A DNA stretch of 51,760 bases, taken from contig CAADGU010000353.1 of assembly GCA_900696625.1 (NCBI GenBank), positions 1 to 51,760 of the forward strand, in the 5' to 3' direction. The DNA is from an uncultured Chloroflexota bacterium (GTDB taxonomy: Bacteria; Chloroflexota; Anaerolineae; Promineifilales; Promineifilaceae). This document shows positions 5,805 to 23,168 of the stretch, one piece after another (position 1 is the stretch's first letter; each line of letters begins with the position of its first letter). Position numbers and translations under genes: made by a program. Below the pieces are notes generated by a model. The model made no database searches. It saw only the letters and a list, made by a program, of their open reading frames with translations, and was not told the DNA's origin.

Positions 5805-6688
5805 ATTAGACATTATCGGAAATAAGACAGCACCTCAAAAGGCTGTAAAATCGGCCATACACATAACAAAAACAAGAGGTGCTGTTCATGCTATCTTACG
5901 ATCAAGTAAAGGATAAACCCACTATCTTACAGGCCTTCACGGATCACACGCAAGCTGAGTTTGAAGAGTTACTAGCCGCCTTTACTATTGCTTGGCAACA
6001 GCTTATTGAAGAAGAACAGGCGCAGCGTGAACGAAAGCGTAAACCAGGCGGTGGGCGAAAACCAAAGTTAGAAACGATGGCTGATCGGCTTTTCTTCATT
6101 CTGTTTTACCTCAAGACCTATCCCTTGCAAGAGGTATTGGCCTTTCTATTCTCAGTCAGCCCGGGTCAGGCCAATGAATGGGTTCTTCGTTATGCCAAAG
6201 TTTTGCAGCGCGCTTTGGACAATCTTGGTCACTTAACTGAGCGTGACGGGGAACGTCTGGGTGAGGCTCTCCATGAGCAAGAGCCTCTGTCATTTACTCA
6301 AGACGGGAGTGAAAGAAGGCGGCAGCGCCCAAAAGATACCGACAAACAGAAACAATACTACAGGGTAAAAAGAAGTGCCACACGGTCAAGAATCATTTGG
6401 TCATTCAACCTGACAGCCGTCGTGTTTGGTATTTGAGTCTCACCACGCCAGGTAAAAAGCATGACAAAAAGTTAGCCGATGAAGCCAATCTGTGCTTTCC
6501 TTCGTTAGCGGTTGTGGAGCAAGACACAGGATTTCAAGGTTTTGCGCCTGAACATGTCCTTATTGGAAGCCCGACTTTGACGACCTGGTTATGGAGTTGG
6601 CTTGTGGGTTACACAATCTACGAGTTGCTCATCGTTCTCCTGTAGAAACGATTAATCTTACTGATCTTTATTTCCAATAATGTCTAAT
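5805..6688. mobile_element. Decayed IS5-like insertion sequence, internally deleted
   Basis: The ends are near-perfect 21-bp inverted repeats: ATTAGACATTATCGGAAATAA at 5805-5825 and its complement at 6668-6688 with one mismatch. At about 880 bp it encloses a single transposase region in three different frames, so it cannot move by itself. The exact target duplication is unclear because the outermost ATTA/TAAT bases are themselves complementary. It contains no ACGGCCGT, unlike nearly all surrounding DNA, which fits a foreign origin. Confidence 0.85.
5888..6680 (+). pseudogene. IS5-family-like transposase, frameshifted and internally deleted
   Basis: ATG 5888 follows AGAGGTG. The first segment (frame of 5888) carries the helix-turn-helix domain: GGGRKPKLETMADRLFFILF, YPLQEVLAFLFSVSPGQANEW, and the first catalytic Asp in FTQDGSERRRQR. 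At the A-rich GTAAAAAGAAG (about 6365-6375) homology moves by -1 into GKKKCHTVKNHLVIQ, KKHDKKLADE and QDTGFQGF (second Asp). At about 6563-6570 it jumps to a third frame, giving PDFDDLVMELACGLHNLRVAHRS and a stop at 6678. The stretch between, which normally holds the basic region and catalytic Glu, is missing. The first shift could be a programmed -1 site, as in some IS, but the deletion makes the product inactive. Confidence 0.88.
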
Positions 6689-6710
6689 ATACATTTTCAC
6701 TCGGCGTAGA

Positions 6711-6860
6711 GACAATACACCTGCGCCCAGAGAGGTATCCAGGCCCGTCGTCTCCATCGCTCCTGTTCTGGGCACAAGGTAAAAAAGCTCTCGATTTAGT
6801 CGAGAGCCTTTTGTTTACCTGAGCCTTGTTTCCGGTGCGGGGTCTACCCTGGGTCGCTCC
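6711..6860. repeat. Dispersed intergenic repeat, copy A
   Basis: About 150 bp aligns with 46760-46901 (copy B). Shared blocks include GTATCCAGGCCCG, AAGCTCTCGATTTAGTCGAG, TTTACCYGAGYCTTG and GGGGTCTAYC, with small indels between. The two copies are 40 kb apart. The 5' flank with GTAGAGACAATACACC also resembles the loop of the hairpin at 7038-7062 (GTAAAGACAATTCACC). Confidence 0.75.
6787..6807. terminator. Intrinsic-terminator-like hairpin in repeat copy A
   Basis: GCTCTCGA (6787-6794), loop TTTAG, TCGAGAGC (6800-6807): an 8-bp perfect stem flanked by six A on the left and CTTTTGTTT on the right. The symmetrical A/T flanks would let it terminate transcription in both directions. Confidence 0.65.
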
Positions 6861-7037
6861 CGCGATGACGGCGTCAGAAAGAGTAGGCGGTTTGGCGGTC
6901 AGGACTTTAGATAGTTTGATGCCTCCCAGGGTATCGTGGAGATACGGCCGTTGCCCACAATGCACCGTATCGCAGGAAGCCTAAATCCCGCCCTGTTTCC
7001 AGGGACAGATGTGCCCAGGTAATGGTATGAATTTTTA

Positions 7038-7062
7038 CCCGGTGTAAAGACAATTCACCGGG
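7038..7062. repeat. Hairpin with AAAGACAAT loop
   Basis: CCCGGTG (7038-7044) pairs with CACCGGG (7056-7062) around the loop TAAAGACAATT. Flanking ATGAA and TTCAT extend the stem after a bulge. The loop and inner stem resemble the left part of repeat copy A, suggesting a common repeat family. Confidence 0.55.
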
Positions 7063-7164
7063 GTTCATCAGCCAGAAAACGCTAATGGTTATGTTACAAT
7101 AGAGGCCATTCCCACGGTAAGAATTTCATCCATCACTGGCGCGGGCCAGATAGGAGGCATAATC

Positions 7165-7980
7165 ATGCAAGACGAACAGTCCGTAGATAAGATGAGGCGA
7201 CGTATTCAGGAGTCATTGATCGAGTCGCAGCAGGAACAACTGCGCGAGCAGTATGGGATGCAGTTTCAATATATGTCTGACGAGTTATCACCGGAATCAA
7301 AAATCGAATGGCAGGATTATCTACTTGAATTTGAGCGCCAGTTTGAAAACGCGCAAACCATTACAGTGCGGGAACGGATTGGCAATCCAGCGCTGCCACC
7401 GCTGGCGGAGATACCGGCGGCGGCGCTGGAAGAGACGATAAATAACCTGCTGGACTTACTGGCCGAACACAGCATTGTGATTGATTTTCTAGGCGAATGG
7501 GATGACCAGATGGCTTACCGTTTTATCACCGAAGAATTGCTGGATGAACAAATGGACGACATTCACATTGACGGGATGTTCACCCATTTTGAAGCGGCAA
7601 CGCCGGCGTATGATGTGCAAATGTGGGTAGAACACTTTGTGCGGGATGTTTTCTGGCAAGAGCGTAAATACTTCCTGTCAGGGCTGGAAAAGCGCCCGCT
7701 GTACAACAGTAAAGGCGAACCGGTGACGCCGGCAGAATTCACGCAAGAATTGGAAGCTGTGTGGGCGCTGTTGCCGGCCGAAACCCGGGTTAACGTCCAG
7801 CCTCTGGTTACACAAGTGGGGGAAGATGAAGGGGAGGTCACGGCCGTTATCTCCTGGCTTCATCATCATCAACCGTACCAGGTTGAATCCACCTTCCGCC
7901 TGCGGCCCAGCCCTTATGGCGGTTGGGACGTGGTGCAGACTTCCTTGCTGGCCGATTTGCTCACGGCGTTGAATCAATAG
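7165..7980 (+). CDS. Uncharacterised protein upstream of a CHAT peptidase
   Basis: A 271-residue, strongly acidic, soluble protein with no signal peptide or membrane segment; I do not recognise a family. The N-terminal ~35 residues are a charged helix (KMRRRIQESLIESQQEQLRE). The middle is rich in Trp/Phe/acidic helices (FLGEWDDQMAYRFITEELL, MWVEHFVRDVFW). The C-terminal ~60 residues look like beta strands (VTAVISWLHHHQPYQVESTF). ATG 7165 has a strong AGGAGG nine bases upstream. It ends 43 bases before the CHAT gene on the same strand, so the two are probably one operon and this could be an adaptor, substrate or regulator of the peptidase (inference from position only). Confidence 0.7.
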   Translation: MQDEQSVDKMRRRIQESLIESQQEQLREQYGMQFQYMSDELSPESKIEWQDYLLEFERQFENAQTITVRERIGNPALPPLAEIPAAALEETINNLLDLLAEHSIVIDFLGEWDDQMAYRFITEELLDEQMDDIHIDGMFTHFEAATPAYDVQMWVEHFVRDVFWQERKYFLSGLEKRPLYNSKGEPVTPAEFTQELEAVWALLPAETRVNVQPLVTQVGEDEGEVTAVISWLHHHQPYQVESTFRLRPSPYGGWDVVQTSLLADLLTALNQ

Positions 7981-8023
7981 AAGTGACGGACAATGATATC
8001 CCCTTTTCCCGCTAAGAGACGCC

Positions 8024-9769
8024 GTGAGCAAACTGTTTCCCGTTATTCTGCAATTTCACAAACAATCCGTCAATGCCCCAGATGGTGGGCTGACGGCGCA
8101 TTATCAGGTGCAGGTCGTCCGGGCGCCAGGGCAGGGATGGGGCGGGCCGATGTTAACGACGGGCCTGGATGCCAACCAGATACGGGCCTTACGCGCCGCC
8201 TATCGCGGTTTCCTGGTGCGGCAGCAGGCGCGTGGCGAGGTGGCTGGGGAGTGGACGTCTTTCCCTTTACAACAATTAGGCGATGAATTGTTTACCGCTT
8301 TGCCGGAATCGGTGCAGGCGCGTTTGCAGCAGGCGCAGGGGTATGCCGTGGCGCGCGGCGGGCATTTGCAGATCACCCTCTCGTTTGACCCATCGGCTAC
8401 TGGCCTGCTAGATTTGCCCTGGGAACTGCTGCACGATCCACACGGCCGTTTCTTTTACACGTTGCGCGGCGAAGGCATTACCCGCAACCTGTTGCTGCCC
8501 ACCGCCCCCCAAACCGGAGCGCCACTCTTGCCCAAAGCCACGTTGGGCTGTTGGGCCGAACCCGCAGGCTTAGAAGCATTGGCCGAACGCCGCCGTTTTG
8601 CGCCCGCGCCGGGCCATGCCGGTGGCTTCACCTGGCTGCAAGGGCCAGACAGCCTGGGCCAGGTGCAGCGCGCCCTGGAAACGGGTGCGTATGACAGCCT
8701 GCATCTGGTGGCGCACGGCCGTACCGGTTCCGCCTGGGATTTTGCCATTGCCCTGGAAGATGGGTACGGCCGTGCCCACTGGTTTGGCCCGCAGCAACTG
8801 TCCCTGCTCCTCAGCCACTATCCGGCCATTCGTTTTGTGTACCTGGACGTGTGCGCCGCCGGTGATAATCAGGCGATTGGCCTCGCTGTTGAAGAGGCAG
8901 ACGCCATGCCACCAACGGCCGCGCCGGGCGGGGCCGCCGGGCAGCTTTTGGGGGCAGGCGTGACGGCCGTTGTGATGATGCAAGACCGCATCAGCCAGGC
9001 GGCCGCCGGGCAAATGGCCGAACGTTTTTACCAGGAATTGGCCGAGGGACACACTGTAGCGGCGGCCATGACGGCCGCCCGCCGCGCCGTGCAGTTGCAA
9101 CAAGGAGACGTTATCCATTGGAGCGTACCGGCCCTGTACCGGCAGCAGCCCACGCCGCAAACAACCAGTAAACTGGCGGATTGGGTGCTGGATAAGGTGG
9201 CGACGCCGCCCGTGTTAGGCGGGCTGTTCGCCGGGTTGGCGCTGGCTGTGTTGGTAGGCCATCTCTCCTTCAAGCTAGGGCAGACACGGTTAAACGTCTT
9301 GTCAGAATGGGTGCGTTTGCCGCCCCTGTTGGCTGCCTGCGCCTTGCTGCCCTTGCTGGCAGCGGTGATGACGCGGGCCGGACAAAACCAACTGGCAGAG
9401 AAATATGGGTATCACGGCCGTAGCTGGCTGCCGTTTCTGTGGCACAAGTATTTCAGCGCCTTTGTCTGGGCCATGATGGCCTGGTGGCTGCTGTGGTTCA
9501 TCTGGTGGGGGATTTACGCGTCCGGGTTGGCGCCAGGGCCGGCGGCGCGCCAGGTATTATGGGCCGCCGGGCTGACGGGTGTGGCGCTGGCCGCGCATAT
9601 CGGCGCCCGCCAGGCAATCCGGCAAGATTTATTGTTCCGGCGTGTTGGCTTTTCGTTGTATCACGGTGGTTTAGTAGACGCGCTGCTGCTGCTTTTCTTG
9701 TTATTGGCGCCGCCTTTCTTACCGCTGCTGGCCTGGTTGCTCTGGCAAAGTGTCTGGCAAAGTGTCTGA
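8024..9769 (+). CDS. CHAT-domain peptidase with C-terminal membrane segments
   Basis: A 581-residue caspase-like (clan CD) CHAT protein. Residues ~100-375 form the CHAT domain: LPWELLHDP near 131-139, catalytic His 231 in LHLVAHGR, catalytic Cys 277 in VYLDVCAAG, then GAGVTAVVMMQDRIS. Residues ~396-575 hold about five hydrophobic helices, two of them very Trp-rich (MMAWWLLWFIWWG), so the peptidase is tethered to the membrane with the catalytic domain probably cytoplasmic. The start is GTG 8024; the ribosome site is weak. The 3' end overlaps the convergent zinc-finger gene by 51 bases. The last coding bases contain three near-copies of GCAAAGTGTCTG. CHAT proteases act in programmed death, defence or regulated proteolysis; the substrate is unknown. 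Confidence 0.85.
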   Translation: MSKLFPVILQFHKQSVNAPDGGLTAHYQVQVVRAPGQGWGGPMLTTGLDANQIRALRAAYRGFLVRQQARGEVAGEWTSFPLQQLGDELFTALPESVQARLQQAQGYAVARGGHLQITLSFDPSATGLLDLPWELLHDPHGRFFYTLRGEGITRNLLLPTAPQTGAPLLPKATLGCWAEPAGLEALAERRRFAPAPGHAGGFTWLQGPDSLGQVQRALETGAYDSLHLVAHGRTGSAWDFAIALEDGYGRAHWFGPQQLSLLLSHYPAIRFVYLDVCAAGDNQAIGLAVEEADAMPPTAAPGGAAGQLLGAGVTAVVMMQDRISQAAAGQMAERFYQELAEGHTVAAAMTAARRAVQLQQGDVIHWSVPALYRQQPTPQTTSKLADWVLDKVATPPVLGGLFAGLALAVLVGHLSFKLGQTRLNVLSEWVRLPPLLAACALLPLLAAVMTRAGQNQLAEKYGYHGRSWLPFLWHKYFSAFVWAMMAWWLLWFIWWGIYASGLAPGPAARQVLWAAGLTGVALAAHIGARQAIRQDLLFRRVGFSLYHGGLVDALLLLFLLLAPPFLPLLAWLLWQSVWQSV

Positions 9770-10627
9770 AAAAGTGTCAATCGTTACCTGTAAGGTGGGC
9801 AAGGCGGCGATAGGGACAAGGGGAAAGGCAGCGGTACCGTTGGCGTCGGTCACGGCCGTTTCCTCCCGCCCGCCATACGCAATGGTGACTTGGCGGTCAC
9901 CGGCGTTGGCCAGCCCTGGCCGGTCTACGTGAACCATGAGCGCGCAGCCGGTGGCTGACAGGCGGGCGGCTCGCACAGAGACGTGCCAGGCCACCGGCTG
10001 CCCCACGCGCCGCGACAGCAAATGCCATGCGTCGCCCGTTTCGGCGCTGCTCAAGACGGGCACGGCCGTACCGGGCGCCGGTTGTAATTGTAACTGGTGG
10101 CCTTGTGGCGACACGGCCGTCTGCACATCCACCGCCCGCCCCCATACGGCCGCAGCCGAACTTGCCAAGTAAACAGCCAGCGCCGCTAAATAGCGCCGCG
10201 CCGCGGCCACAACGGCCGATTGTGTTGGCGGTAAGGAGACGCCGGCCAACGCCACATCAAATGCTTCCGGCGTCGCCGGTGGTTGGGCAAACAACAGGGG
10301 TAGGGCGGCCACCGTCTCGCTCACTGCGGCGGCGGCGGGTTCACCCAATTCCGCTTGCAGCAAGTCCACCAATACCTGCTGCGGCGTCATGGCGTAGGCT
10401 GCGGCGGCCATACCGGCTACGGCCGTAAACGACAGCGACGCCAGTTCCTCATAGGCAGCAGCGCAATTCGGGCAGCGCCCCAGGTGTGCCATTTCCGTTG
10501 CATACAACACATCCACGTCCTCCCCTGATAGTTCGGCTGTCACCATTTCCGCCAGCTTTTCATCATCCAGGTGCGGCCCGGCCGGTTCCGTCAACATGCG
10601 GCGCAGATCGTCTAACTGGTCATTCAT
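9719..10627 (-). CDS. Zinc-finger anti-sigma-like protein with C-terminal beta domain
   Basis: A 302-residue protein, third in a sigma-factor operon. Near residues 49-56 is HLGRCPNC, the His-x3-Cys-x2-Cys core of zinc-binding anti-sigma domains; an upstream helix (HLDDEKLAEMVTAELSG) matches the usual layout. Residues ~70-165 are Ala-rich helices without a clear transmembrane segment. The last ~130 residues look like a beta-sandwich with ETAVTDANGTAAFP. It probably holds the cognate sigma factor inactive in the cytoplasm. The start ATG overlaps the upstream stop in an ATGA, so it is translationally coupled. Its 3' end overlaps the convergent CHAT gene by 51 bases. Confidence 0.7.
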   Translation of the reverse strand: MNDQLDDLRRMLTEPAGPHLDDEKLAEMVTAELSGEDVDVLYATEMAHLGRCPNCAAAYEELASLSFTAVAGMAAAAYAMTPQQVLVDLLQAELGEPAAAAVSETVAALPLLFAQPPATPEAFDVALAGVSLPPTQSAVVAAARRYLAALAVYLASSAAAVWGRAVDVQTAVSPQGHQLQLQPAPGTAVPVLSSAETGDAWHLLSRRVGQPVAWHVSVRAARLSATGCALMVHVDRPGLANAGDRQVTIAYGGREETAVTDANGTAAFPLVPIAALPTLQVTIDTFSDTLPDTLPEQPGQQR

Positions 10628-10896
10628 GCGTCATTCCCCAGGTCATACAGCGCGGCATAGGCCAGGCCAGCCAGCGCTTCATATTCTTGAAAACAGGCGG
10701 GGCAGAGGTCCAGGTGAACGGCCGTTTCCATGTACAAATCGTCCACGGCCTGGCCGGCCATCTCGTCGCTGACAAAAAGGGGCAGGCTTTCCCGGCAACG
10801 CTGGCAATCTTCAGCCGGCGCCTGGCCGGTCGGTGACAAACGCAGCGACGACAACAAGTGACGCCAGGGAAGCGCGTTATCAACCGCCATTTTCAT
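10624..10896 (-). CDS. Small zinc-finger protein in sigma-factor operon
   Basis: A 90-residue protein with HLDLCPACFQEYEAL near residues 62-76 (His-x3-Cys-x2-Cys), the same zinc-finger pattern as the downstream 302-residue protein. A second pair, CQRC near 31-34, may complete a metal site or form another. It overlaps the sigma gene upstream by 17 bases and the next gene by four (ATGA), so all three are made as one unit. It probably acts as an anti-sigma factor or an adaptor between sigma and the larger protein. The short length leaves no room for an output domain. Confidence 0.7.
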   Translation of the reverse strand: MKMAVDNALPWRHLLSSLRLSPTGQAPAEDCQRCRESLPLFVSDEMAGQAVDDLYMETAVHLDLCPACFQEYEALAGLAYAALYDLGNDA

Positions 10897-11743
10897 CCCC
10901 TTCTGGCTGCCCCAAGATAAGCAGTAATTGCTGCTTTTCGGCCGGCGGCAGGCTGCGCAGCGTTTGCAATATGCGGAACTTCACCATGCGAATTTCGTGC
11001 GGCCGTTTCTGCAATAACCCGGCAATCTCCTTAGGGCTAAGACCCTCCAGAAACAACATGTCGGCCACCAATACCTGTTGTTCGCCGGACAAATGCTGGC
11101 GGAAAAAGGCTTTTAGTTGGGCGCGAATTTCACGATCAGACACGCTGATTTCCACTTTCCGTTCGGATGAGCCAGGCCTGGCTGGTGGTGCCGAGGGCAC
11201 GGCCGTTTCCCGTTCGGCTGCTGCTTCCGTTAATGCTTCCCATGATAACGGATTTTGGCCGCCGCCGCGAAAAACGGCCGCGCGCTGGCGGGTTACGTCA
11301 ATGGCCTTGCGCCGGGCAGCATTCAGTGCGTAGACGAGGAAGGCACGGGGAGCGTCCATTCCATTCTGGCTCAGGCGGCTCTGCAAATCGGCCAGCGCGG
11401 CCTGAACCACATCTTCCCGCTCCTCCGGCGCACCGGCCAACTGGTATGCCTGCTGCCGCAGAAAATGGCCCAATTCCCACCAGGCGCGTTCGTAGACGGC
11501 CGTCCCCGGCTGGCGGCAGGCGTCGTGCAAGATAGCCGCGTAGCGCTGCCAGATTTGAGCTTGCACGGCCCCGGTCATCTCTCCCACTACCTGGCCAGCC
11601 AGCGCCGCGTAAATAACCGCTGCCAGGTCATCTACTTCTACCAGGCGCCACTCTTGCGCCGCTAAATACTGTCTGACCAGTTGCGTACAAACAGCCAGAT
11701 CAAAACGCGGTTCGGCCGTCACGATATGGTTTTGCGTCTCCAT
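10880..11743 (-). CDS. ECF-like sigma-70 family factor
   Basis: A 287-residue sigma-70-family protein. Residues ~80-155 resemble region 2 (WWELGHFLRQQAYQL, EEREDVVQAALADLQSRL, FLVYALNAARRKAIDVTRQ). A variable linker follows (~156-205), then region 4 at ~215-265 (LSGEQQVLVADMLFLEGLSP, KEIAGLLQKRPHEIRMVKFR), the -35-recognition helix-turn-helix. An ~80-residue N-terminal extension is longer than in classical ECF factors. It is first gene of an operon with two zinc-finger proteins and is divergent from the small secreted peptide gene. It likely directs transcription of neighbouring CHAT or peptide genes, though its promoter cannot be identified by eye. Confidence 0.78.
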   Translation of the reverse strand: METQNHIVTAEPRFDLAVCTQLVRQYLAAQEWRLVEVDDLAAVIYAALAGQVVGEMTGAVQAQIWQRYAAILHDACRQPGTAVYERAWWELGHFLRQQAYQLAGAPEEREDVVQAALADLQSRLSQNGMDAPRAFLVYALNAARRKAIDVTRQRAAVFRGGGQNPLSWEALTEAAAERETAVPSAPPARPGSSERKVEISVSDREIRAQLKAFFRQHLSGEQQVLVADMLFLEGLSPKEIAGLLQKRPHEIRMVKFRILQTLRSLPPAEKQQLLLILGQPEGDENGG

Positions 11744-11781
11744 CCGTCTTTCTTAATTAAGCGCGCCTTGCTGAAAAAACA

Positions 11782-11831
11782 CCGATGGCCATCGGGTTTA
11801 TCCACATTCCGGCCGGGTTCACTGCCCGGCC
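11782..11831. promoter_or_regulatory. Palindrome and hairpin in the sigma/peptide divergent region
   Basis: Between the divergent sigma and peptide genes are a 14-bp palindrome CCGATGGCCATCGG (11782-11795) and a hairpin GGCCGGG-ttcactg-CCCGGCC (11811-11831). The hairpin ends about nine bases before the AAGGAG ribosome site of the peptide gene. The first could be an operator, the second an RNA leader structure. Confidence 0.4.
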
Positions 11832-11852
11832 CCACTCAAAAGGAGAAACCTG

Positions 11853-12062
11853 ATGATTCGTATAAAACAAAAGCTGGTTCATATTTTGTTGCCGGCTCTG
11901 CTGCTGGCGTTGTTTGCCATGCCAGGCATGAGCGTGGGTGCTGCCAGGTTAACAAATAACAACCCACAGTATACCGTAGCCCTGCAAACCGGGATCGGTG
12001 ATATTCCAGTCATTCTTTGCAACGGTGGTAGCAGCTCTGGTGGTAACTGTGGCGGTGGATAA
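11853..12062 (+). CDS. Small secreted Gly/Ser/Cys-rich peptide
   Basis: A 69-residue product with a clear Sec signal peptide: basic MIRIKQK, hydrophobic LLPALLLALFAMPG, and an Ala cleavage site around residue 30. That leaves about 39 mature residues ending in CNGGSSSGGNCGGG, with two cysteines in a Gly/Ser-rich tail. AAGGAG lies ten bases before the ATG, so translation should be good. It sits alone between two sigma-CHAT units, has a hairpin in its leader and two hairpins after it. I recognise no family. Possibilities are a signalling or bacteriocin-like peptide, or a structural surface peptide; none is proven. Confidence 0.65.
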   Translation: MIRIKQKLVHILLPALLLALFAMPGMSVGAARLTNNNPQYTVALQTGIGDIPVILCNGGSSSGGNCGGG

Positions 12063-12126
12063 AGTAAGCGCCTTTATCCATTGAATGTTGTAGGAATGCC
12101 GGGCGTTCATCTGTTGGACGCCCGGC
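12056..12126. terminator. Two terminator hairpins after the small peptide gene
   Basis: TGGATAAAG (12056-12064) pairs with CTTTATCCA (12072-12080) and overlaps the peptide stop codon. GCCGGGCGT (12098-12106) pairs with ACGCCCGGC (12118-12126) just before the end of the convergent TPR-CHAT gene. Both stems are 9 bp and perfect. The second is probably a shared, bidirectional stop. Confidence 0.6.
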
Positions 12127-12133
12127 GCCCATT

Positions 12134-15100
12134 TTAAGGCAGGCCAAAGATTTGCAGGCCGCCCCATTGCGCCGAGGGCAAACCAGCCTGGTGGGCTGCC
12201 CGCTGCGCCAGGGCCAGCGCCATCGCCGCTCCGGCCCCGTTGTGCCAATGGTGATAAAAAGACGCCATCAATGCCGGCATTGACTCATCCTGAACCGGCC
12301 ACAAACTGCTGACCACGCGCTGCGCCCCGGCCGCCAGGCAGGTGATGGTCAGGCTGACATGTTCGTCGCCGGCGTAAACCAGGCTGTGGCCGCCGCTGCA
12401 CGCGGAGAGCGTCACCAGGGGCGGCAAGGGGGCCAACTGCCACAACTCGTCCAACAGCACGTCCCGATCATACAGGGACATACCGCTGAAACGGCCGGAA
12501 AGCCCATCGTAAAAAGCGTGGCTGGCGATGTGCCAGAAGGTAAAACGGGCGGCCAGGCCCTCTTCCCCGGCGAATGTCCGCAGATGATCCCAGGTAGCGG
12601 CCGTGTCCCGCAATTCACGACCGGCCGGCCCCAGCAGAGGGCTGAGCAGCGCCGCTTCCCGGTTTACGGCCGGCAGTGGCTGGCGCCCCCCGTGAAATTC
12701 GGCGATGGCCAGCAGCAGCCCGGCCTCTTCTGGCGGGCAGGCGGCCAGGGGACGCTGCCACATAAGCGACAAACTATGCAACGAAGGAACCAACACGGGT
12801 ACGCAGGCGGCCGCTAACGGCCGTTTCCCCAGGCGGAGGGCCGGCCAGGGCAGCCGGTGTAGCTGGCGGTGCGGCGAAAGGATGAGGGTGGTGGCCGGCG
12901 TTAATTTTTCTTGCACCCAATCGGGCAGCAGCCAGGCGCCCAGCCGCGCCAGGGCGCGTTCCGGCAAGGCGGCGCCCGTTTGCGCTGGCCGGGTTGCTGT
13001 TTGCAGCGCCAGGCGGATAGGGGGGGAGACGGCCGTTTCCCAGGCGCGGCGTACACGCGGCGTCAGCAGCACCGTACACAACGCATCTCCGGCCAGATAA
13101 TAATCCAGCGCCAGCCAGTTCTGTCCCAGCTGGCGGTTGGCCTGGCGGCGGAACTGCTCCCAATTAAAAGCAGCCAGGGTGATGGCTTCCGGCTGTTCCC
13201 CCCATTGTTGCCGTTCATGTTGTCCCTGCAACTGGTCATATGCCTTGACCTTTTCCACCAGTTGTTGGCGGAGCGTGGCTGCCTCCGCCGGTGGTAACGC
13301 CTCCGATGTAAGGGCAAGACCCGGCCACAGTTTCTCTTGCAGCCAGTTGATCTCGGCCGCCAGATCGTTCAAAGCCATTGACTCCACAGGATTCAAGGGA
13401 CGCAGATTACTGGCCACCCGGCGGGTTACCGTTTGCGCTTTGCTTTCCTCTATAAATTGCAGCGCGTCCTCATGGGCCGCTTCCGAATGGGCGGCCTGCT
13501 GTGTGGCCAGGTGGATGGCCGCATCCAGGTAAGGCAAGGGGCGGGCCAGAAATGAGCCGGCCAGCGATGGTTGCCACAACCCCCGGCGCAAACGGGCCAT
13601 CGCCCTGGACATTTCCTGGTAATGGGTCAGAGCAACAGACTGTTTGCCCTGATCGCGGGCCACACCGGCCAGTCCGGCCTGCGCCTGCCAGTCAATATCT
13701 GGCAGTACGCCCGCGCTTAAGTCCAGCGCCCGCTGCCAGGCTGTCTGTGCAGCCGCTTCATTACCTGTCTGCCAATAATAACGGCCCAAAGCTATGGCGC
13801 AGGCGGTCTGTTCAAAGAGCAGCCCCATTTCGGCAAAACTGGCTTCGGCCGCTATTAAATGAGGCAACGCCTGATCATATTCTTGAACAACACAATACAG
13901 TTCACCCAACAATCGCCGTGACAAAGCTGCTTCATTTGCGGCATTTTCTTGTTGCGCCATTGATAGCGACTCTTGTAAGCAGGCAATCGCCTCTCTATCT
14001 TTGTTTTCGTAATACAGAGTGGCCGCCCGGAGATTATAAATCTCATAAAGATACTTGCCTGATTGAGTAAGTTTGTAATGGGTAGCGGCTTTTTCCAGAA
14101 AGCGGTGGGCCAGATGAAACTGCCCCAACTTCAACCAGCAATAGGCCAGATGTTTTTCACAGGCAGCCGTTCGATAGGGGATATTGAGAACTTGTAGACG
14201 GCTATATGCCAATTCCAAAAAATGTAGAGATTGTTGATAGGATCCCCATCGAAAACAGACCTGCCCCTGATTCGACAGGCAGACAGTAGGAAGCCATTCG
14301 TTACCCGTCTGCTCATACAAGATCTTTGCCTGGGCAAAATAAGCAAGACTGGCAGCGTAGTTCCCTTTCAGCATTTCTAATCGCCCGCTATCCAGTAAAG
14401 CGTCTGCTTTCAAGCCAACAATTTCATCACTGGCATAAATTTCTCTGGCCTGGCGTAGGGCTTGACCAGCTTCACGCAATCGCCCCGTTTCATTGTAGAG
14501 TTGGGCTAAGGCTGCATAGCATTGTGCCGACCATAAGGGCAAATCAGCCATTTTAAACAACGCCAGCGCTTGGTCAAACCTGGCCTCGGCTACGGCAAAG
14601 CGGTCCTGAGACAAATACGCTACGTAGGCCAGTTGAAAGTAAACCTGGGCTGTTAGAACATCCGCAGGCGTTGATTGAAACTGGGCCATAGCCTGCTCCA
14701 GGCAGTTTTGGGCTTTGGCAAAGTGGGATTGGCGGCGCAGGCGGCTGGCGTGGGTGAGCAGGCAGCGCCCCAGGCCGATCTGGTCGTTTTGCGCCTGGTA
14801 AATTTGTTCGCTGGTCTCGGTTAGCTCTCTGGCCTGTTCAAAATTGCCAATGAGCAGGTGGGCGTAGGCCAGGGAAAGGCGGCAGTCGGGGAGCAGGTGG
14901 TCAAAACCGGCGGCTTCCAGGCTGTGCAGGGCATTGGTTAATGTGGCGGCGGCGTCTTTGAAGTTGGGGCGCGTCCAGGGCAGGGCGTTTTGCTGCCAGT
15001 CACAGGCGGCCAGCCAGCCAGGTTCGTCTAGTTGGACAAAAGCGGCGCGGGCGCGGGTGATGGCGGCTTCCACCAGCTGCGGCCGCACCCAGGCGTTGGC

Positions 15101-15367
15101 GGCGCGGGCCAGGTGCCAGGCGGCCAAACCCTGAAGAAAGGGGTCATGGGTGTGGGCAGCGGCTTCGGCTACGGCCGTGACTGCCCAGCTATGTTTGGGC
15201 TGCGTCAGCGCCAGTTGGGCGGCGTGGTCGGCCAGGCGGGCTAGCAGGGGGCGGTCCAGGGGGGGCAGTTGCGCGGCCAGATGGGGCAGGTTTTCTGGGG
15301 ACAGACGGCCGTGAAAAAGCCGTTCTGCCTCTGCCAGGTAAGCCGCCGCGGAAGGTTGTTGCTCCAT
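12134..15367 (-). CDS. TPR-CHAT peptidase
   Basis: A 1077-residue protein. Residues ~120-620 are tandem helical TPR repeats (for example LGRCLLTHASRLRRQSHFAK, ACEKHLAYCWLKLGQFHLAH), a protein-binding superhelix. The C-terminal ~330 residues are a CHAT caspase-like domain. The predicted catalytic His is ~950 in FWHIASHAF and the Cys ~990 in TLSACSGG, followed by CLAAGAQRVVSSLWPVQDES, the typical CHAT strand-helix. No signal peptide is seen, so it is cytoplasmic. The gene starts 12 bases after the 271-residue partner gene, which overlaps a sigma gene: one operon. TPR-CHAT proteins are known as regulated proteases (Csx29 in type III-E CRISPR is one, also linked to a sigma factor). No CRISPR or Cas gene is present here. 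Confidence 0.9.
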   Translation of the reverse strand: MEQQPSAAAYLAEAERLFHGRLSPENLPHLAAQLPPLDRPLLARLADHAAQLALTQPKHSWAVTAVAEAAAHTHDPFLQGLAAWHLARAANAWVRPQLVEAAITRARAAFVQLDEPGWLAACDWQQNALPWTRPNFKDAAATLTNALHSLEAAGFDHLLPDCRLSLAYAHLLIGNFEQARELTETSEQIYQAQNDQIGLGRCLLTHASRLRRQSHFAKAQNCLEQAMAQFQSTPADVLTAQVYFQLAYVAYLSQDRFAVAEARFDQALALFKMADLPLWSAQCYAALAQLYNETGRLREAGQALRQAREIYASDEIVGLKADALLDSGRLEMLKGNYAASLAYFAQAKILYEQTGNEWLPTVCLSNQGQVCFRWGSYQQSLHFLELAYSRLQVLNIPYRTAACEKHLAYCWLKLGQFHLAHRFLEKAATHYKLTQSGKYLYEIYNLRAATLYYENKDREAIACLQESLSMAQQENAANEAALSRRLLGELYCVVQEYDQALPHLIAAEASFAEMGLLFEQTACAIALGRYYWQTGNEAAAQTAWQRALDLSAGVLPDIDWQAQAGLAGVARDQGKQSVALTHYQEMSRAMARLRRGLWQPSLAGSFLARPLPYLDAAIHLATQQAAHSEAAHEDALQFIEESKAQTVTRRVASNLRPLNPVESMALNDLAAEINWLQEKLWPGLALTSEALPPAEAATLRQQLVEKVKAYDQLQGQHERQQWGEQPEAITLAAFNWEQFRRQANRQLGQNWLALDYYLAGDALCTVLLTPRVRRAWETAVSPPIRLALQTATRPAQTGAALPERALARLGAWLLPDWVQEKLTPATTLILSPHRQLHRLPWPALRLGKRPLAAACVPVLVPSLHSLSLMWQRPLAACPPEEAGLLLAIAEFHGGRQPLPAVNREAALLSPLLGPAGRELRDTAATWDHLRTFAGEEGLAARFTFWHIASHAFYDGLSGRFSGMSLYDRDVLLDELWQLAPLPPLVTLSACSGGHSLVYAGDEHVSLTITCLAAGAQRVVSSLWPVQDESMPALMASFYHHWHNGAGAAMALALAQRAAHQAGLPSAQWGGLQIFGLP

Positions 15368-15379
15368 GCGGCTATTGTA

Positions 15380-16195
15380 TCAGCTTTGCGGGGTTTCCAG
15401 TACCAGGCGTAAATCGGCGGTGCGCAGTTGTCCGGCTTCGTCCAGGATGTCATCCAGGCGCAGGGGAGGGAAGTGGGCACGGCCGTAGGCGTCGAGTACG
15501 GCCGTGTGTGCATAACTGCCCCAATGCAGGCTGGCTTGCAGCGGCGGCAGTGGTGTTTCGGCGGCGGCCAGCAGTTGCAGGCGCAGCAGTTCCGGCTCCT
15601 CCACCGGTCGGATTGCTTCCAGCAGTGTTTCCACCGGTTGATCCGCTATCGTCACCTCATCGTGCAAAAGAATGATGCTTTCATCTTCCAGCAAAGGGGC
15701 GGCGCGGCGGTAAACCAGGTCAGGCGTGGGGAAGAGCAGTTGTTGTAGTTGGTCAAAAAGCACCTGCCAGGTAACGCGCCAACCATTGGGGGTGAGTTGC
15801 GCAATTTCCCGTTGGGGCGGGGGCGTCTTCTGCAAAAAGGTTAGCTCGTTGATGGTGGCGGGGGGGGAAGGAAGGGGGGTACGGCCGTCTGTTTCCAACA
15901 GGGACAGCGCCTCAATAAAGGTCTGGTACAGGGAGGGGGCGGCCATCATCCTGCCCCAAAATGCGGGGTAACGTTCGCTGATATCCACGCCCATCAGGGC
16001 ATCATGCAATACCAATGAAAACATCTCCATGTCACTTTCGTCAGTTTCTGGCGATGGCATCTGCCCGGCGACGAGGGCCAGTAACTGGTCAGCCATGGCC
16101 GGCCATGGCCCTGGTTCCACGGCCTGCGACCGCAATGTAGCCAATTTTTGCTTGATCCAACCGGACGCCGCTTCTTCGCTATCTGCTCTACTCAT
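15380..16195 (-). CDS. Sigma-linked partner protein, possible anti-sigma without zinc finger
   Basis: A 271-residue soluble protein between a sigma factor and the TPR-CHAT peptidase; I recognise no named family. The N-terminal half is helical. The C-terminal ~100 residues look like beta strands ending HTAVLDAYGRAHFPPLRL, which resembles ETAVTDANGTAAFPLVPI in the 302-residue zinc-finger protein at the other sigma locus. Part of that likeness (TAV) is encoded by the ACGGCCGT motif in both, so it must be weighed with care. The start overlaps the sigma gene by eight bases. By position it may be the anti-sigma factor or the substrate/adaptor that links the protease to the sigma factor. Confidence 0.6.
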   Translation of the reverse strand: MSRADSEEAASGWIKQKLATLRSQAVEPGPWPAMADQLLALVAGQMPSPETDESDMEMFSLVLHDALMGVDISERYPAFWGRMMAAPSLYQTFIEALSLLETDGRTPLPSPPATINELTFLQKTPPPQREIAQLTPNGWRVTWQVLFDQLQQLLFPTPDLVYRRAAPLLEDESIILLHDEVTIADQPVETLLEAIRPVEEPELLRLQLLAAAETPLPPLQASLHWGSYAHTAVLDAYGRAHFPPLRLDDILDEAGQLRTADLRLVLETPQS

Positions 16196-16973
16196 ATTTA
16201 TCCTGCCAATCAGCCCAAATCTTTCTCAGGTTTTGCAGCGCGTCAAAATGCAGCTTGTGAATGGCGCTGCTGCTCCGGTTGAGCGCGGCTGCAATTTCGG
16301 TAAACGTCATCTGCTCAAAATAGCGCATGAGAATGATCTGTTTACGGGCGTCAGAGGTTAACTGGTCAACGGCCGTCAACAACGTGTGCCGCAGTTCGAC
16401 CGTATCCTCTGGGCTAGGGATGGATAGCTGTGGCCATATCCCTTCCCAGGCATCCCAATCATCTATCTGGTGTGTATCTACGGCCGTTTCCGCATAGCGC
16501 CTGTGTAACTGTTTCAAGGTAACGGTTTGCAGCAAAACGTAAGCCCAGGGGTCAAAATCGGTGTCATAAGGAAAGCGGGCATTCAGAAGTTGGGTGGCGG
16601 CGGCAGCGGCGCAATCGGCGGCCATTTCCTGCTTTTCGTTGTGGGCAGGCGGGGATTTTTGGCGGCAAAGATAGTTATAGGCCCACCGTTTGAGTTTGTC
16701 ATACAAGGGCAGCCACAGGTCGGCGCGCCGCTCCTGCTGGATTTGCCAGAGATAGGGCTGCCACTTTTCATAAAATGCCACCACCCGCCAGACGTACTCT
16801 TCGGGCCGGTGATTTTCTGAATTGTCCAGAAAGTGCTGTGCGCGACCCCGATCCAGGTTTGCCAGGATGATGGGGGTAATGCTGTGGGCGAAATCCTCCC
16901 CTTTCTGGATAGCTACTATTTGAATGGCCTGTTGCAGCGCCGCTGTCACTGCCTCTTCGTCCCAACTCGTCAT
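16188..16973 (-). CDS. ECF-like sigma-70 family factor, second copy
   Basis: A sigma-70-family factor of 261 residues from ATG 16973, which has AAGG six bases upstream; a TTG at 17006 would add 11 residues. Region 2 is at about residues 80-160 (LYDKLKRWAYNYLCRQ, DPWAYVLLQTVTLKQLHRR). Region 4 is at about 205-255 (LTSDARKQIILMRYFEQMTF, TEIAAALNRSSSAIHKLHFD). It overlaps the 271-residue gene by eight bases and heads an operon with the TPR-CHAT peptidase. It is not a close copy of the sigma at 10880-11743 but fills the same place next to a CHAT gene. Promoter TATAAT at 17014-17009 on this strand may drive it. Confidence 0.78.
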   Translation of the reverse strand: MTSWDEEAVTAALQQAIQIVAIQKGEDFAHSITPIILANLDRGRAQHFLDNSENHRPEEYVWRVVAFYEKWQPYLWQIQQERRADLWLPLYDKLKRWAYNYLCRQKSPPAHNEKQEMAADCAAAAATQLLNARFPYDTDFDPWAYVLLQTVTLKQLHRRYAETAVDTHQIDDWDAWEGIWPQLSIPSPEDTVELRHTLLTAVDQLTSDARKQIILMRYFEQMTFTEIAAALNRSSSAIHKLHFDALQNLRKIWADWQDKYE

Positions 16974-17006: not shown

Positions 17007-17373
17007 AGATTATAGAGGATGCTGCTGCCCATGAAAAGAAGTCGAAACAGATGTAAGAAATGGCACGCGGGGCAGGATAATAATGGGTAGTGGGAGGTCA
17101 CATGTGCCAGTAAGCAAAGTCACGGCCGTGCGCACAATGGATGGGTACGGCCGTGACCTTTACCCTTGATGTACAGGTTAGATCATTACAATCACGTGAC
17201 AAAGGTCACATGAGCACAAACGCAATTTTCAGTAAACTGCGCTTTGCCAATACAGTCATTCCCCTCATCCAGCCATAGGATTCCCAACCCTTGCTGGTGG
17301 GTTGTAGTTGTTCCTGACACCAGAAATCGAATGGATGGTTGGCGGCATTGACTATTGGTACAGGAGGGTTATT
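17007..17373. promoter_or_regulatory. Divergent control region between sigma operon and zinc-ribbon cluster
   Basis: This 367-base region has no gene. It holds TATAAT on the minus strand (17014-17009) before the sigma gene. An 11-bp inverted repeat GTCACGGCCGT / ACGGCCGTGAC (17119-17129 and 17147-17157) is built from two copies of the ACGGCCGT motif. GGTCACATG occurs twice (17097-17105 and 17204-17212), and a CRP/FNR-type palindrome lies at 17195-17210. Before the lipoprotein gene, CAACCC and GGGTTG can pair near 17285-17303. Confidence 0.5.
17195..17210. promoter_or_regulatory. CRP/FNR-family-like operator
   Basis: CGTGACAAAGGTCACA matches the TGTGA-N6-TCACA layout of CRP-family sites at nine of ten half-site positions (reading TGTGA-CCTTTG-TCACG on the minus strand). 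It lies midway between the divergent sigma and lipoprotein genes, so it could serve either. No CRP-like gene is in the window. Confidence 0.4.
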
Positions 17374-18111
17374 GTGCCAAAACAAGCTTCTCTTTTCCTC
17401 TATTTTTTAATAGCGGTGACGTTTATCCTGGTTGGCTGCGGTGCGGATATTGACCGGCGCGTCACGTTTTACCGCGACGAAGCCTGGAAAGCAGAGATGG
17501 AAATTCGCTTTCCGGCTGATCTGGTGGCCCTATTGGCCGCCTCGCCCGAATCGCTTGAAGCCGAGATCGCGCAGCAGGTGGCTGAATGGGAAGCAGAAGG
17601 CGCGCAGGTGAAGTGGAACTCCAGCCGCGAAGATGCCACCCTGATATACACGTTCGAAGTCGAGAGCGAAGGTTTAGAACTGCTGAATGAGATCGTGTTT
17701 GAAGATAACGCCACGATCACAGCCACAGAGGTTGACGGCCGTCGGCAAATCAACTTCTCCTATTTCGGATCCCGTAATCTGGTGGGCGCTAACAATGATA
17801 CGTTGACGCTGCAGGGCGGTGAAATCATTTCCAGTAATGGTGAGAAACTCAACAACGGCACAGTGCAGTGGGCGAATGCCAACGGCCGTATGAATGCCGT
17901 GCTGACCGAAAAAAGCAGGTCAGGTTTTGCCACATTTTTCCTTATCGTATTGGTATTGGGTGGATTGGGCGGCGGGTTATGGTATTACCGGCAGAAAAAC
18001 AGCCAGTCTCCGCCGCAGGTGGCGCCAGTTCAGACGGCCTTTTGCGCCAACTGCGGTACGCAGTTAAGCCCTCAGGCCAAATTCTGCCCCATCTGCGGAT
18101 ATAAACAATAA
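17374..18111 (+). CDS. Lipoprotein with transmembrane helix and C-terminal zinc ribbon
   Basis: I choose GTG 17374 because AGGAGGG stands five bases before it and the product then begins with a lipoprotein signal ending in ILVGC. An upstream ATG (17308) has no ribosome site. The extracytoplasmic part (~25-180) is mixed alpha/beta, with YRDEAWKAEMEIRFP at the start, and matches no family I know. A strong transmembrane segment (ATFFLIVLVLGGLGGGLWYY, about residues 187-208) leads to a C-terminal zinc ribbon, CANCGTQLSPQAKFCPICG. The layout places the ribbon in the cytoplasm and a lipid anchor plus sensor-like domain outside. It heads a run of zinc-ribbon genes on the same strand. Confidence 0.75.
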   Translation: MPKQASLFLYFLIAVTFILVGCGADIDRRVTFYRDEAWKAEMEIRFPADLVALLAASPESLEAEIAQQVAEWEAEGAQVKWNSSREDATLIYTFEVESEGLELLNEIVFEDNATITATEVDGRRQINFSYFGSRNLVGANNDTLTLQGGEIISSNGEKLNNGTVQWANANGRMNAVLTEKSRSGFATFFLIVLVLGGLGGGLWYYRQKNSQSPPQVAPVQTAFCANCGTQLSPQAKFCPICGYKQ

Positions 18112-18153
18112 TGACCCAGATGACTGATTTATCGGCACAACAAAGTGGTTGGT

Positions 18154-18181
18154 AGCTGGTGGCCACTATCAGCCACCAGCT
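18154..18181. terminator. Strong hairpin between zinc-ribbon genes
   Basis: AGCTGGTGGC (18154-18163) pairs perfectly with GCCACCAGCT (18172-18181) around an 8-base loop. There is no T tract, so it may attenuate or stabilise mRNA between the two genes instead of acting as a simple terminator. Confidence 0.5.
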
Positions 18182-18205
18182 GCCATTATTCATAGGAGGT
18201 TGTTC

Positions 18206-18661
18206 ATGCCTACAATTCAATGTCAGAACTGTGGGGCGGAGAATGTGGGGACGGTAAATTTTTGTAAGCAGTGTGGTAGCAAACTGGAACGGCCGTCTGC
18301 GCCGACTCCATCACCTGAGCCGAAGGCGTTTGCGGCTGATCTGCCAGCTTCAGGCACGGCCGTTGCCCCACCCTCTGTACGCATCGAAAACAAATTTGCC
18401 GCCCTTCACGGCATTGCCTCCCTCTGCCGGCTTTTGGCGTATATCTTTGCTGGTCTGGCCGTTCTGGGAGGGATTGTCGCCTTTTTTATCACCCTGTCCG
18501 ACTCCTTTTTTGCGGCAGTGGGCGCACTGATGGGCGCTCTCATCTGGGCCACCATCACATACATTTTCTGGCGGGTCATTGGCGAAAGCATTTCGGTGCT
18601 GCTGGATATTGAAGAGAATACCCGTCGTGCGGCGACTATTTTAGAACAACGTTTGCCGTGA
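18206..18661 (+). CDS. Zinc-ribbon membrane protein
   Basis: ATG 18206 is preceded by AGGAGG; an earlier in-frame ATG (18149) lies in the hairpin region and has no ribosome site. The 151-residue product starts with a zinc ribbon (CQNCGAENVGTVNFCKQCG, residues 6-24), then a Pro-rich linker, then two hydrophobic helices (LCRLLAYIFAGLAVLGGIVA and FFAAVGALMGALIWATITYI). It ends in a charged helix. It resembles many small zinc-ribbon-plus-two-TM proteins of unknown role. The ribbon and C terminus should both be cytoplasmic. Confidence 0.75.
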   Translation: MPTIQCQNCGAENVGTVNFCKQCGSKLERPSAPTPSPEPKAFAADLPASGTAVAPPSVRIENKFAALHGIASLCRLLAYIFAGLAVLGGIVAFFITLSDSFFAAVGALMGALIWATITYIFWRVIGESISVLLDIEENTRRAATILEQRLP

Positions 18662-18722
18662 TGATGACGGGCAGCCCCGGATGTTTCACGTAGCGACAAA
18701 TAAAGAATAACGGAGGCATGCT

Positions 18723-19568
18723 ATGAGTGACTTTTTTAATCGGGTGCGTTCGGGGGCGGGCAAAGCGGCTTTTGAAGCCGACAAACTGCGGCGGACACAG
18801 GCCATACAACTCAAAATCCGGTCACTGAACCAGGAGACGGAGAAGGTGTATACCCAGGTGGGGCGGGTGGCCTATACCCTGTACCAGCAAGAACAGGTGG
18901 CCCAGCCGGAGCTAAAGGCAGCCTGCGACCGGCTGGCAGCGGTGTTTGCCCAGATTGCAGCGCATGAACAGGAAGTTGAGCGCATCAAGGCAGAGGTATT
19001 TGTGGACGCGGCCGTGGCCGGCATCCAATACGGCCACATCTGCCCTAACGGGCACGGCCAGATAGCGCCGCAGGATTATTTCTGCCAGGTGTGCGGCGCC
19101 AAAGCCATTGACGTGCCGCCGCCCACCGGGCTGGCCTGCCCGCACTGCCACGCCCCGTTGCAGCCTGGGGCGCGGTTTTGCGCCAACTGCGGCCAGAGTT
19201 TGCCGCTCGCGGCGGCGACAGCGCCGGTTTCCAACCCCTGCCCCAATTGCGGCGCGCCCCTGCTGCCAGATGCACTCTTTTGCACGGAGTGTGGGCATAA
19301 GGTGACCACGCCCGAACTAAAATCTGAGGAAGCGCATGAGGTTGTGGACACGCTTGCACTGAGCGCAGCCGAAGTGGCCGTGCCTGACCCATTCTCGCCG
19401 GCCAGTGACATAGATGCGCCAGATGTGGTGATAGCGGCTGAAGAGGAAGCGGCCGTAACCACTCCACCAGACGAACCGCTAGCGCCACCCGCCGCCTGCC
19501 CGGTCTGTGGTGCGTCCCTGGTGGAGGGCGCCGCTTTTTGTACGGAGTGTGGCCATCACCTCAATTAG
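18723..19568 (+). CDS. Coiled-coil protein with four zinc ribbons
   Basis: A 281-residue soluble protein with a CGGAGG ribosome site before ATG 18723. Residues 1-95 form a helical coiled-coil region (IQLKIRSLNQETEKVYTQVG, AAHEQEVERIKAEVF). Four zinc ribbons follow: CPNGHGQ...CQVCG (~107-124), CPHCHAP...CANCG (~139-157), CPNCGAP...CTECG (~173-191) and, after an acidic, Pro-rich linker, CPVCGAS...CTECG (~259-277). No membrane segment is present. Multi-ribbon proteins of this kind (DZANK-like) act as protein or nucleic-acid binding platforms; the partner may be one of the membrane zinc-ribbon neighbours. Confidence 0.8.
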   Translation: MSDFFNRVRSGAGKAAFEADKLRRTQAIQLKIRSLNQETEKVYTQVGRVAYTLYQQEQVAQPELKAACDRLAAVFAQIAAHEQEVERIKAEVFVDAAVAGIQYGHICPNGHGQIAPQDYFCQVCGAKAIDVPPPTGLACPHCHAPLQPGARFCANCGQSLPLAAATAPVSNPCPNCGAPLLPDALFCTECGHKVTTPELKSEEAHEVVDTLALSAAEVAVPDPFSPASDIDAPDVVIAAEEEAAVTTPPDEPLAPPAACPVCGASLVEGAAFCTECGHHLN

Positions 19569-19888
19569 TTGTGAACGCAAACGGCCGTGAAAGAAAGTCT
19601 CAATCTTGTCAAAAAAGCAAGGAACGATTGAATTCTTTGAAGATGGCACTGTTATATTAGATGGCAACCAGGGTCATCTTAACCGGTAGCTCTGGTGAAA
19701 TGAGGCCGGTACCGACACCCCAAGGTGCAGAAGCCCGTTGCCTGATCGAAGTAACCCGGATTGTTCATGTATTCACGTCTATTGATGAGGAAATGGAACG
19801 TTTTATTGAAGAGCAAGAATGAGACCACTTTATGTTTATCAAACTTTTTAGTGATTGAATCTGCAAACCATTCAACCAGGAGAAACCC
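19569..19888. other. Intergenic stretch with possible decayed small gene
   Basis: This 320-base gap has one ACGGCCGT (19582-19589) and two overlapping short frames: a TTG-started peptide ending ...FFEDGTVILDGNQGHLNR at a TAG, and the ATG frame at 19661-19822 listed separately. A good AGGAGA ribosome site for the next gene ends the gap. No hairpin stands out. Confidence 0.4.
19661..19822 (+). CDS. Possible small protein, perhaps a frameshifted remnant
   Basis: A 53-residue frame from ATG 19661 to TGA 19822 (begins MATRVILTGSSGEMRPV, ends DEEMERFIEEQE). No ribosome site precedes it. An overlapping frame just upstream encodes QGTIEFFEDGTVILDG, which reads like the natural N-terminal part of the same protein, so a one-base shift near 19680 could have split one gene of about 75 residues. 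Family unknown. Confidence 0.3.
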   Translation: MATRVILTGSSGEMRPVPTPQGAEARCLIEVTRIVHVFTSIDEEMERFIEEQE

Positions 19889-20596: not shown

Positions 20597-20603
20597 ACAA
20601 TGG

Positions 20604-20630
20604 AATTCCCAGCATGGTTCTTTGGGAATT
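20604..20630 (+). terminator. Hairpin after the double-ribbon gene
   Basis: AATTCCCA (20604-20611) pairs with TGGGAATT (20623-20630), loop of 11 bases, starting seven bases after the stop codon. The following TTAGGGGG is not a T tract, so termination strength is uncertain. Confidence 0.45.
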
Positions 20631-20646
20631 TAGGGGGTTGACAAGG

Positions 20647-20761
20647 CCCCTTCGACAAGCTCAGGGCAGGCTGTGATGCGTGATGAGTGATGCGTGACCA
20701 GAGAGACCACACGCATCACTCGTCACATGTCACGCCGAACCCCATGAAATCCTGTAGAGCC
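20647..20761. repeat. Intergenic repeat cluster: TTCGACAAGCTC element and GTGATGCGTG hairpin, copy 1
   Basis: CCCTTCGACAAGCTCAGGGC (from 20648), a short palindromic element common in many bacterial genomes, is followed by a 95-bp repeat (20667-20761). Within the latter, GAGTGATGCGTG (20685-20696) pairs with CACGCATCACTC (20710-20721) around ACCAGAGAGACCA. The same 95 bp recurs at 25476-25570 with about 85% identity. The two copies bracket the PD40 and carboxypeptidase-like genes. Confidence 0.75.
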
Positions 20762-20791
20762 CAAAAATTGAACGAATCTACCGGACACAGC

Positions 20792-23122: not shown

Positions 23123-23158
23123 AAACAGTTGGCTGGTACCAGCCAACTGTTTTTATCC
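23117..23158. terminator. 42-bp perfect palindrome overlapping the stop codon
   Basis: GGATAAAAACAGTTGGCTGG (23117-23136) followed by its exact reverse complement makes a 42-bp perfect palindrome centred on GGTACC. It includes the TAA stop of the PD40 gene and ends ten bases before the next ATG. A run of five T near the right end allows it to work as a terminator in either direction, or as an attenuator before the carboxypeptidase-like gene. Confidence 0.75.
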
Positions 23159-23168
23159 GAGAAAGTTT

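Follow-up and report, generated by a model that had tools for sequence, protein, structure and literature searches.

The window, by which we mean the whole stretch of DNA analysed (51,760 nucleotides of an uncultured Chloroflexota bacterium), carries two adjacent groups of sigma factor, ZAS-type and protease genes, which we call module A and module B, together with a gene for a small, predicted secreted peptide. The features are:

17119–17157, no strand: inverted repeat GTCACGGCCGTA..ACGGCCGTGAC upstream of sigA, a possible operator
16188–16973, − strand: sigA, the sigma factor and conserved first gene of module A (TIGR02937 8.1e-14, Sigma70_r4 1.3e-10)
15380–16195, − strand: anti-sigma-like partner of module A, 271 aa, assigned by hhalign homology; 8 bp overlap with sigA
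12134–15367, − strand: TPR-CHAT cysteine peptidase, 1077 aa (CHAT 2.1e-32)
11853–12062, + strand: gene for a small secreted peptide with a Cys/Gly tail, 69 aa
11744–11852, no strand: promoter region from which sigB (−) and the peptide gene (+) diverge, with a CGTCTTT box at ~11745
11782–11795, no strand: palindrome CCGATGGCCATCGG in this common promoter region, the only copy in the genome
10880–11743, − strand: sigB, the sigma factor of module B (TIGR02937 1.5e-11), of a distinct family
10624–10896, − strand: short ZAS protein of 90 aa with an H...C..C motif, encoded by the second gene of module B, which is conserved
9719–10627, − strand: long ZAS protein of 302 aa, encoded by the third gene of module B, which is conserved and overlaps the short ZAS gene by 4 bp
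8024–9769, + strand: membrane CHAT peptidase, 581 aa (Pfam CHAT 7.6e-15), convergent and overlapping with the long ZAS gene

Within each operon the genes overlap or abut. The order in module A is sigma factor, ZAS-type anti-sigma-like partner and TPR-CHAT, and module B runs from its sigma factor through a short and a long ZAS protein to a membrane protease. The initial annotation had described a sigma factor and two zinc-finger proteins convergent on a membrane CHAT peptidase, and a sigma factor, a partner and a TPR-CHAT gene in one operon; all of these genes were found, with the CHAT and TIGR02937 matches given above. Its picture of two sigma/CHAT modules side by side holds for their presence but not for their independence, because both groups belong to a single cassette, which is found again with unchanged gene order in other genomes and includes the secreted peptide. 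The start of the locus, placed at 7165, also had to be moved: the relatives of the gene at 7165–7980 (+ strand) in L031, L055 and L056 adjoin no CHAT, sigma or ZAS gene, and we therefore rejected it as a member of the system (L-numbers label relative loci and G-numbers genomes; the class is Anaerolineae, the phylum Chloroflexota). This gene lies directly 5′ of the membrane CHAT gene and encodes a 271-aa protein of unknown family, whose relatives stand in other surroundings and of which only fragments are left in L061 and L062. Elsewhere in the window, fragments at 5879–6645 (+ strand) resemble a broken transposase gene when read by eye, and a short tandem repeat at 44359–44550 lies within a 1049-aa ORF. 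A gene run at 17308–24362 (+ strand), composed of zinc-ribbon proteins followed by a WD40-like PD40/peptidoglycan-binding protein and an M14 carboxypeptidase, is largely kept beside module A in L061 and L062.

The surroundings of CHAT genes were surveyed in 151 genomes of the phylum, taking CHAT regions regardless of their neighbours. An ECF-like sigma gene lay within four genes of 26 of the 64 CHAT ORFs, whereas 388 kb of control sequence from genomes of the same sample contained a single sigma gene (~0.026 per 10 kb); the sigma–CHAT association is far above chance. The genome of the window itself has five CHAT genes, four of which stand beside a sigma gene (the two described here, L058 and L060). 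A search with the partner in 249 genomes of the class recovered sigma–partner–TPR-CHAT triads in many families. Conservation of gene order, whose absence from relatives had been named as grounds for giving up the idea, was thus found: the order sigma, partner, CHAT is kept across many families. A search with sigB identified both modules together in L042, L044, L144, L145, L147, L149, L153, L154 and L156; L165 and L166 were added later. The whole cassette occurs in the same order in ~12 genomes of seven families (window and L043 included), a count that includes loci cut by contig ends and two whose TPR-CHAT frame is short or interrupted (L145 and L147). It is very unlikely that this neighbourhood reflects a mere general habit of Chloroflexota CHAT genes and that the two groups are unrelated. 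Module A occurs without module B in L040, L049 and L167, and module B has decayed to fragments in L061 and L062 (Anaerolineae ACE_CHL11 and BJ8), as unrelated groups would allow, but the fixed order and spacing in the ~12 genomes and the low sigma density of the control both speak against it.

Some relatives have further genes nearby. In L167 (same genus), nSTAND/winged-helix, TCAD9-EAD7 and NACHT genes, which are typical of conflict systems, follow behind module A (6544–13020, + strand), and in L154 a CHAT domain fused to NB-ARC and TPR is encoded divergently from module A (8121–10846, + strand). Phage carriage was rejected, as no relative was found in viral contigs.

The sigA gene has an ATG start, with a TTG at 17006, and encodes an ECF-like factor with an N-terminal extension of ~80 residues. 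Both sigA and sigB exceed the cut-off of TIGR02937, the sigma70-ECF superfamily model covering regions 2 and 4. The arms of the inverted repeat 5′ of sigA are conserved in L035, L061 and L062 and its spacer is variable; as a regulon-wide operator it was rejected because of its single genome copy. The search for a common sigA promoter motif gave nothing above shuffles. The 271-aa partner, which matched no NCBIfam model, has a ZAS-type N-terminal part, an LxFL linker motif and a beta-rich C-terminal part, and its zinc ligands are lost. An alignment of 11 module-A partners shows the three ligands of the N-terminal H...C..C to be invariant (H86/C90/C93), and in the clade of the window's partner (window, L035–L040, L061) they are replaced while the rest is kept. 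The window partner matches the zinc-bearing partners over its full length (hhalign, 2.4e-29), and in profile comparison module-A partners match the module-B ZAS proteins at 7e-9. Furthermore, the profile of the zinc-bearing partners gave a weak match to the anti-sigma factor RsiW (E 0.08), and the CHAT-adjoining partner in L069 lies above the zf-HC2 cut-off. The sigma ORFs adjoining CHAT in L065, L068 and L097 are 488–516 aa long and can be read as natural sigma–partner fusions, and the LxFL motif recurs in the linker of many partners of both modules. From the ZAS homology, the RsiW and zf-HC2 matches, these apparent fusions, the LxFL motif and the operon context we conclude that the partners are very probably anti-sigma factors. 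An AlphaFold model of the partner (pLDDT 49, from a three-row alignment) was too weak for a fold search.

Both CHAT proteins of the window have the features of clan CD peptidases, namely a CHAT domain with catalytic His and Cys. The TPR-CHAT protein bears a TPR superhelix at about residues 40–595 and its catalytic residues are H950 and C990; the His and Cys are invariant in 10 of 10 aligned sequences. Its AF2 model (pLDDT 56, likewise from a three-row alignment) had a well-modelled TPR part and a CHAT part below 50 and was too weak for a fold search. PADLOC yielded nothing beyond weak TPR and CHAT matches, and a single-protein scan with TPR-CHAT returned only 2 loci.

In module B, sigB belongs to a distinct family, with ~21 matches above 120 bits followed by a sharp drop in score, and both ZAS proteins carry H..C..C in their N-terminal segment. 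The membrane CHAT protein has three strong hydrophobic segments after residue 395, and its catalytic H and C are kept in L042, L144 and L145. This protein is the terminal member of module B in the window, L042, L144, L145 and L165. Beside the same sigma and ZAS genes, an M48-type membrane protein (~580–650 aa, HEL[AS]H) is found instead in L149, L153, L155, L156 and L157; four of these five exceed the Pfam M48 cut-off, the fifth, L157, being assigned from its sequence. Nine or ten hydrophobic segments were counted in each of three M48-type proteins scanned for them, and several of the M48-type proteins end in a zinc-ribbon-like C-terminus. Since two unrelated protease folds occupy one slot, proteolysis appears to be the needed function, which argues that the conserved feature is proteolysis rather than the CHAT fold. 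The exchange also makes a relay from protease to anti-sigma factor more likely; together with the conserved gene order and the ZAS-like nature of the partners, it lends partial support to the stand-alone relay suggested in the initial annotation. The C-terminal part of the long ZAS protein is beta-rich in the window, L042 and L144 and helical beside M48, and partners beside CHAT elsewhere are also mostly beta-rich at the end, with few exceptions, L145 being one (judged by eye). It is suggestive that this part may be the one recognized by the protease, with few independent changes and L145 as an exception.

We propose, with a probability of about 0.55, that the locus is a single two-tier regulatory cassette in which a protease would cut an anti-sigma factor and so free a sigma factor, with the peptide as a working part. 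The comparisons establish gene content and order, their conservation, the homologies, the catalytic residues, the exchange of proteases and the peptide gene as a conserved ORF; sigma binding, cleavage of the anti-sigma factor and the direction of the signal are here inferred. In module A, the ZAS-type partner would hold sigA, the TPR superhelix of TPR-CHAT would sense a trigger and the CHAT domain would cut the partner, setting sigA free in the cytoplasm. In module B, sigB would be held by the two ZAS proteins and released once the long one is cut by the membrane protease, which is CHAT in the window and M48 in other genomes. The secreted Cys/Gly peptide could be the output of one of the sigma factors or a signal read by one of the proteases. 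We slightly favour the anti-sigma factors as the proteins on which the proteases act.

Because the protease lies in or next to the sigma operon, the signal might also run in the other direction, and the same operons would fit a CHAT enzyme expressed by the sigma factor as an effector. CHAT and M48 would then be outputs: the sigma/ZAS pairs would sense redox state or metal via zinc and switch on caspase-like proteases with other protein targets, for instance in programmed cell death. ZAS factors that directly sense oxidation are known (PMC8999054), and module A in L167 stands beside the conflict-type NACHT, TCAD9 and EAD7 genes. We consider this explanation, the main alternative, rather improbable. 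In the window's partner clade the module has persisted without the zinc ligands, which speaks against zinc sensing in that clade, and an M48 protease of housekeeping type would be odd as a death effector; this loss and the M48 exchange count mildly against the alternative. Moreover, the tail of the long ZAS protein varies with the type of protease.

Convergent with the TPR-CHAT gene lies the 69-codon peptide ORF, which the initial annotation had missed. It has an AGGAG Shine-Dalgarno sequence, a signal-peptide-like start and the tail CNGGSSSGGNCGGG. An ORF of this kind is present at the same position in L042, L043, L044, L049, L144, L145, L147, L149, L153, L154 and L156, and the gene was found at 15 loci in total; the tails include CPGTGC, CPGSGC, CPGGDC, CPGGTC and CNGGGSNGGCGG, and the peptides of L042, L044 and L147 bear no Cys pair. 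Scored by stop-to-stop distance, Shine-Dalgarno sequence and signal-like N-terminus, the ORF was detected at 12 of 20 TPR-CHAT genes compared with 0 of 188 control genes, where the loci are partly non-independent and most had been seen before the test was written. Using only the peptide as bait in 59 genomes, we obtained matches in G443 and G440, with the cassette at both loci, and a weaker match in G431 at the same place beside a module A; this search yielded three new module-A loci. In addition, third codon positions of the ORF are the most divergent and second positions the least, as in coding sequence. The peptide very probably belongs to the system. Similar secreted Cys/Gly peptides are also encoded close to further sigma/CHAT or sigma/ZAS loci, in L111 (6736–6915, + strand) and L052 (13886–14089, − strand), and the peptide family may thus extend beyond the cassette.

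In cassettes with module B, the peptide gene and sigB have a common divergent promoter region. A CGTC-type box was found 5′ of the peptide gene at 7 of 10 loci, compared with 3.7% of control windows, and also in L165 and L166. In a subset this CGTC[CT]TT-type box is preceded by TTGTAAG at 16–18 bases, an arrangement that resembles an ECF-type promoter. The palindrome CCGATGGCCATCGG is conserved in L165 and occurs in diverged forms in L166, L144 and L042; with one genome copy it was rejected as a regulon-wide operator. Upstream of the peptide gene in L043, L044, L049, L149 and L153, sequence of the type CCTTTCTGG..CCAGAAAGGAGG could mask the Shine-Dalgarno sequence by pairing with it, and is a possible RNA or DNA control element.

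We think it rather unlikely that the peptide serves as a signal and not as an output alone. A special form of our preferred model would take it as a means of communication: after processing, for which the membrane protease is a candidate, the Cys/Gly peptide would be recognized by the TPR superhelix and set CHAT going, in a manner comparable to Rap–Phr pairs, where Phr peptides are bound by TPR receptors of the Rap type. In the 15 loci the peptide accompanies TPR-CHAT, also where module B is lacking (L049 and L167), but several TPR-CHAT loci have no peptide. RapF, RapH and AfsR are among the many TPR proteins matched by the TPR profile; the matches are generic, however, and the best scores go to designed TPR proteins and kinesin light chain. 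Likewise, one peptide weakly matched the Phr signal region (0.0073, below the cut-off), but the match covers the signal peptide only. We hold this form of the model to be rather improbable. The cassette shares with RRNPP pairs such as Rap–Phr the pairing of a TPR protein with a small secreted peptide gene, whereas its peptide gene is convergent rather than downstream in the operon, the product has a Cys/Gly tail and a protease is joined to the TPR part.

Comparison of the window with L061 revealed an abrupt change within the TPR-CHAT gene. The partner is 90% identical, and sigA and residues 1–177 of TPR-CHAT are at 85–88% identity with a dS of 0.28–0.42, whereas the rest of TPR-CHAT falls to 33–80% identity and its dS is saturated or exceeds 1.2; beyond it, the flank recovers. 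With such a sharp border, the sequences indicate that the TPR-CHAT body was replaced by recombination. A hypervariable TPR region as a general rule found no support, because pairs in other genera diverge evenly; we take the replacement as one event, since other pairs of relatives have no such break. At its most far-reaching, the cassette could serve cell-to-cell communication or kin recognition: two sigma factors would be freed by caspase-like and membrane proteases under the control of the secreted Cys/Gly peptide, the protease types would be exchangeable and recombined TPR-CHAT bodies would alter sensing. This is a speculative reading, to which we give slightly less credence than to the communication form of the model above.

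Among the known systems compared, Craspase (type III-E CRISPR: Cas7-11, Csx29, Csx30 and CASP-sigma) follows the same logic, in that Csx29 cleaves Csx30, the inhibitor of CASP-sigma (PMC10028731). As there, a TPR-CHAT protease stands beside a sigma inhibitor and an ECF sigma factor. The relation to Csx29 that had been suggested holds at the level of TPR-CHAT but not of family membership, as the window's TPR-CHAT reaches 15.1 bits on the Csx29 model NF041237 against a cut-off of 300. We saw no CRISPR array in the window, in line with the earlier statement that no CRISPR is present; all 24-mers listed with at least three copies lie in the tandem repeat near 44.4 kb, and Cas7-11 was not among the gene products scanned. 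In contrast to Craspase, where Csx30 is the inhibitor, the partner is of ZAS type, and the second sigma factor, the membrane protease and the peptide have no Craspase counterpart. Because of these differences, the failure of the Csx29 model and the lack of an array in the window, we place the cassette outside Craspase.

ECF54 sigma factors have conserved CHAT, subtilase and carboxypeptidase neighbours, have been proposed to be protease-regulated and are described without a cognate anti-sigma factor (PMC8999054). The cassette resembles them in its ECF sigma factors with CHAT neighbours and in the proposed regulation by proteolysis. However, ZAS partners are constant in the cassette, which is set apart from ECF54 by this description. 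Subtilases adjoin other Chloroflexota CHAT genes and not those of the window; a recurrent family immediately next to CHAT in L058, L064, L067, L069, L070, L071, L074, L080, L081, L084 and L086 (S8 subtilase in the members scanned) is reminiscent of the ECF54 surroundings. With ZAS anti-sigma factors of the RsrA, ChrR and RsiW type, both module-B proteins and 11 module-A relatives share the N-terminal helical H..C..C segment, next to an ECF sigma factor in the same operon, but the module-A partner of the window has neither zinc ligands nor a membrane segment and is beta-rich in its C-terminal part, and sigB has two ZAS proteins. Neighbourhoods of caspase-fold EACC2, ECF sigma and DUF1822 proteins in multicellular bacteria, for which a role in conflict is predicted (PMC8195603), likewise combine a caspase-fold protein, an ECF sigma factor and a helper, whereas the cassette proteins match neither EACC2 nor DUF1822 and differ in domain architecture. 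Among open-licence papers we found none that describes the two-sigma cassette, the exchange of proteases or the peptide. We file the cassette as putative protease-controlled sigma switching, under neither Craspase nor ECF54, the latter compared by its description.

If our preferred reading is true, the protease-to-sigma logic of Craspase would extend to a CRISPR-free and widespread system. The occurrence of CHAT or M48 beside the same sigma factor and inhibitors represents a natural experiment on the role of the protease, and the secreted peptide offers an experimental handle that can be synthesized and added. CHAT proteases, which are common and mostly unexplained in these bacteria, would gain a candidate substrate in the neighbouring ZAS protein.
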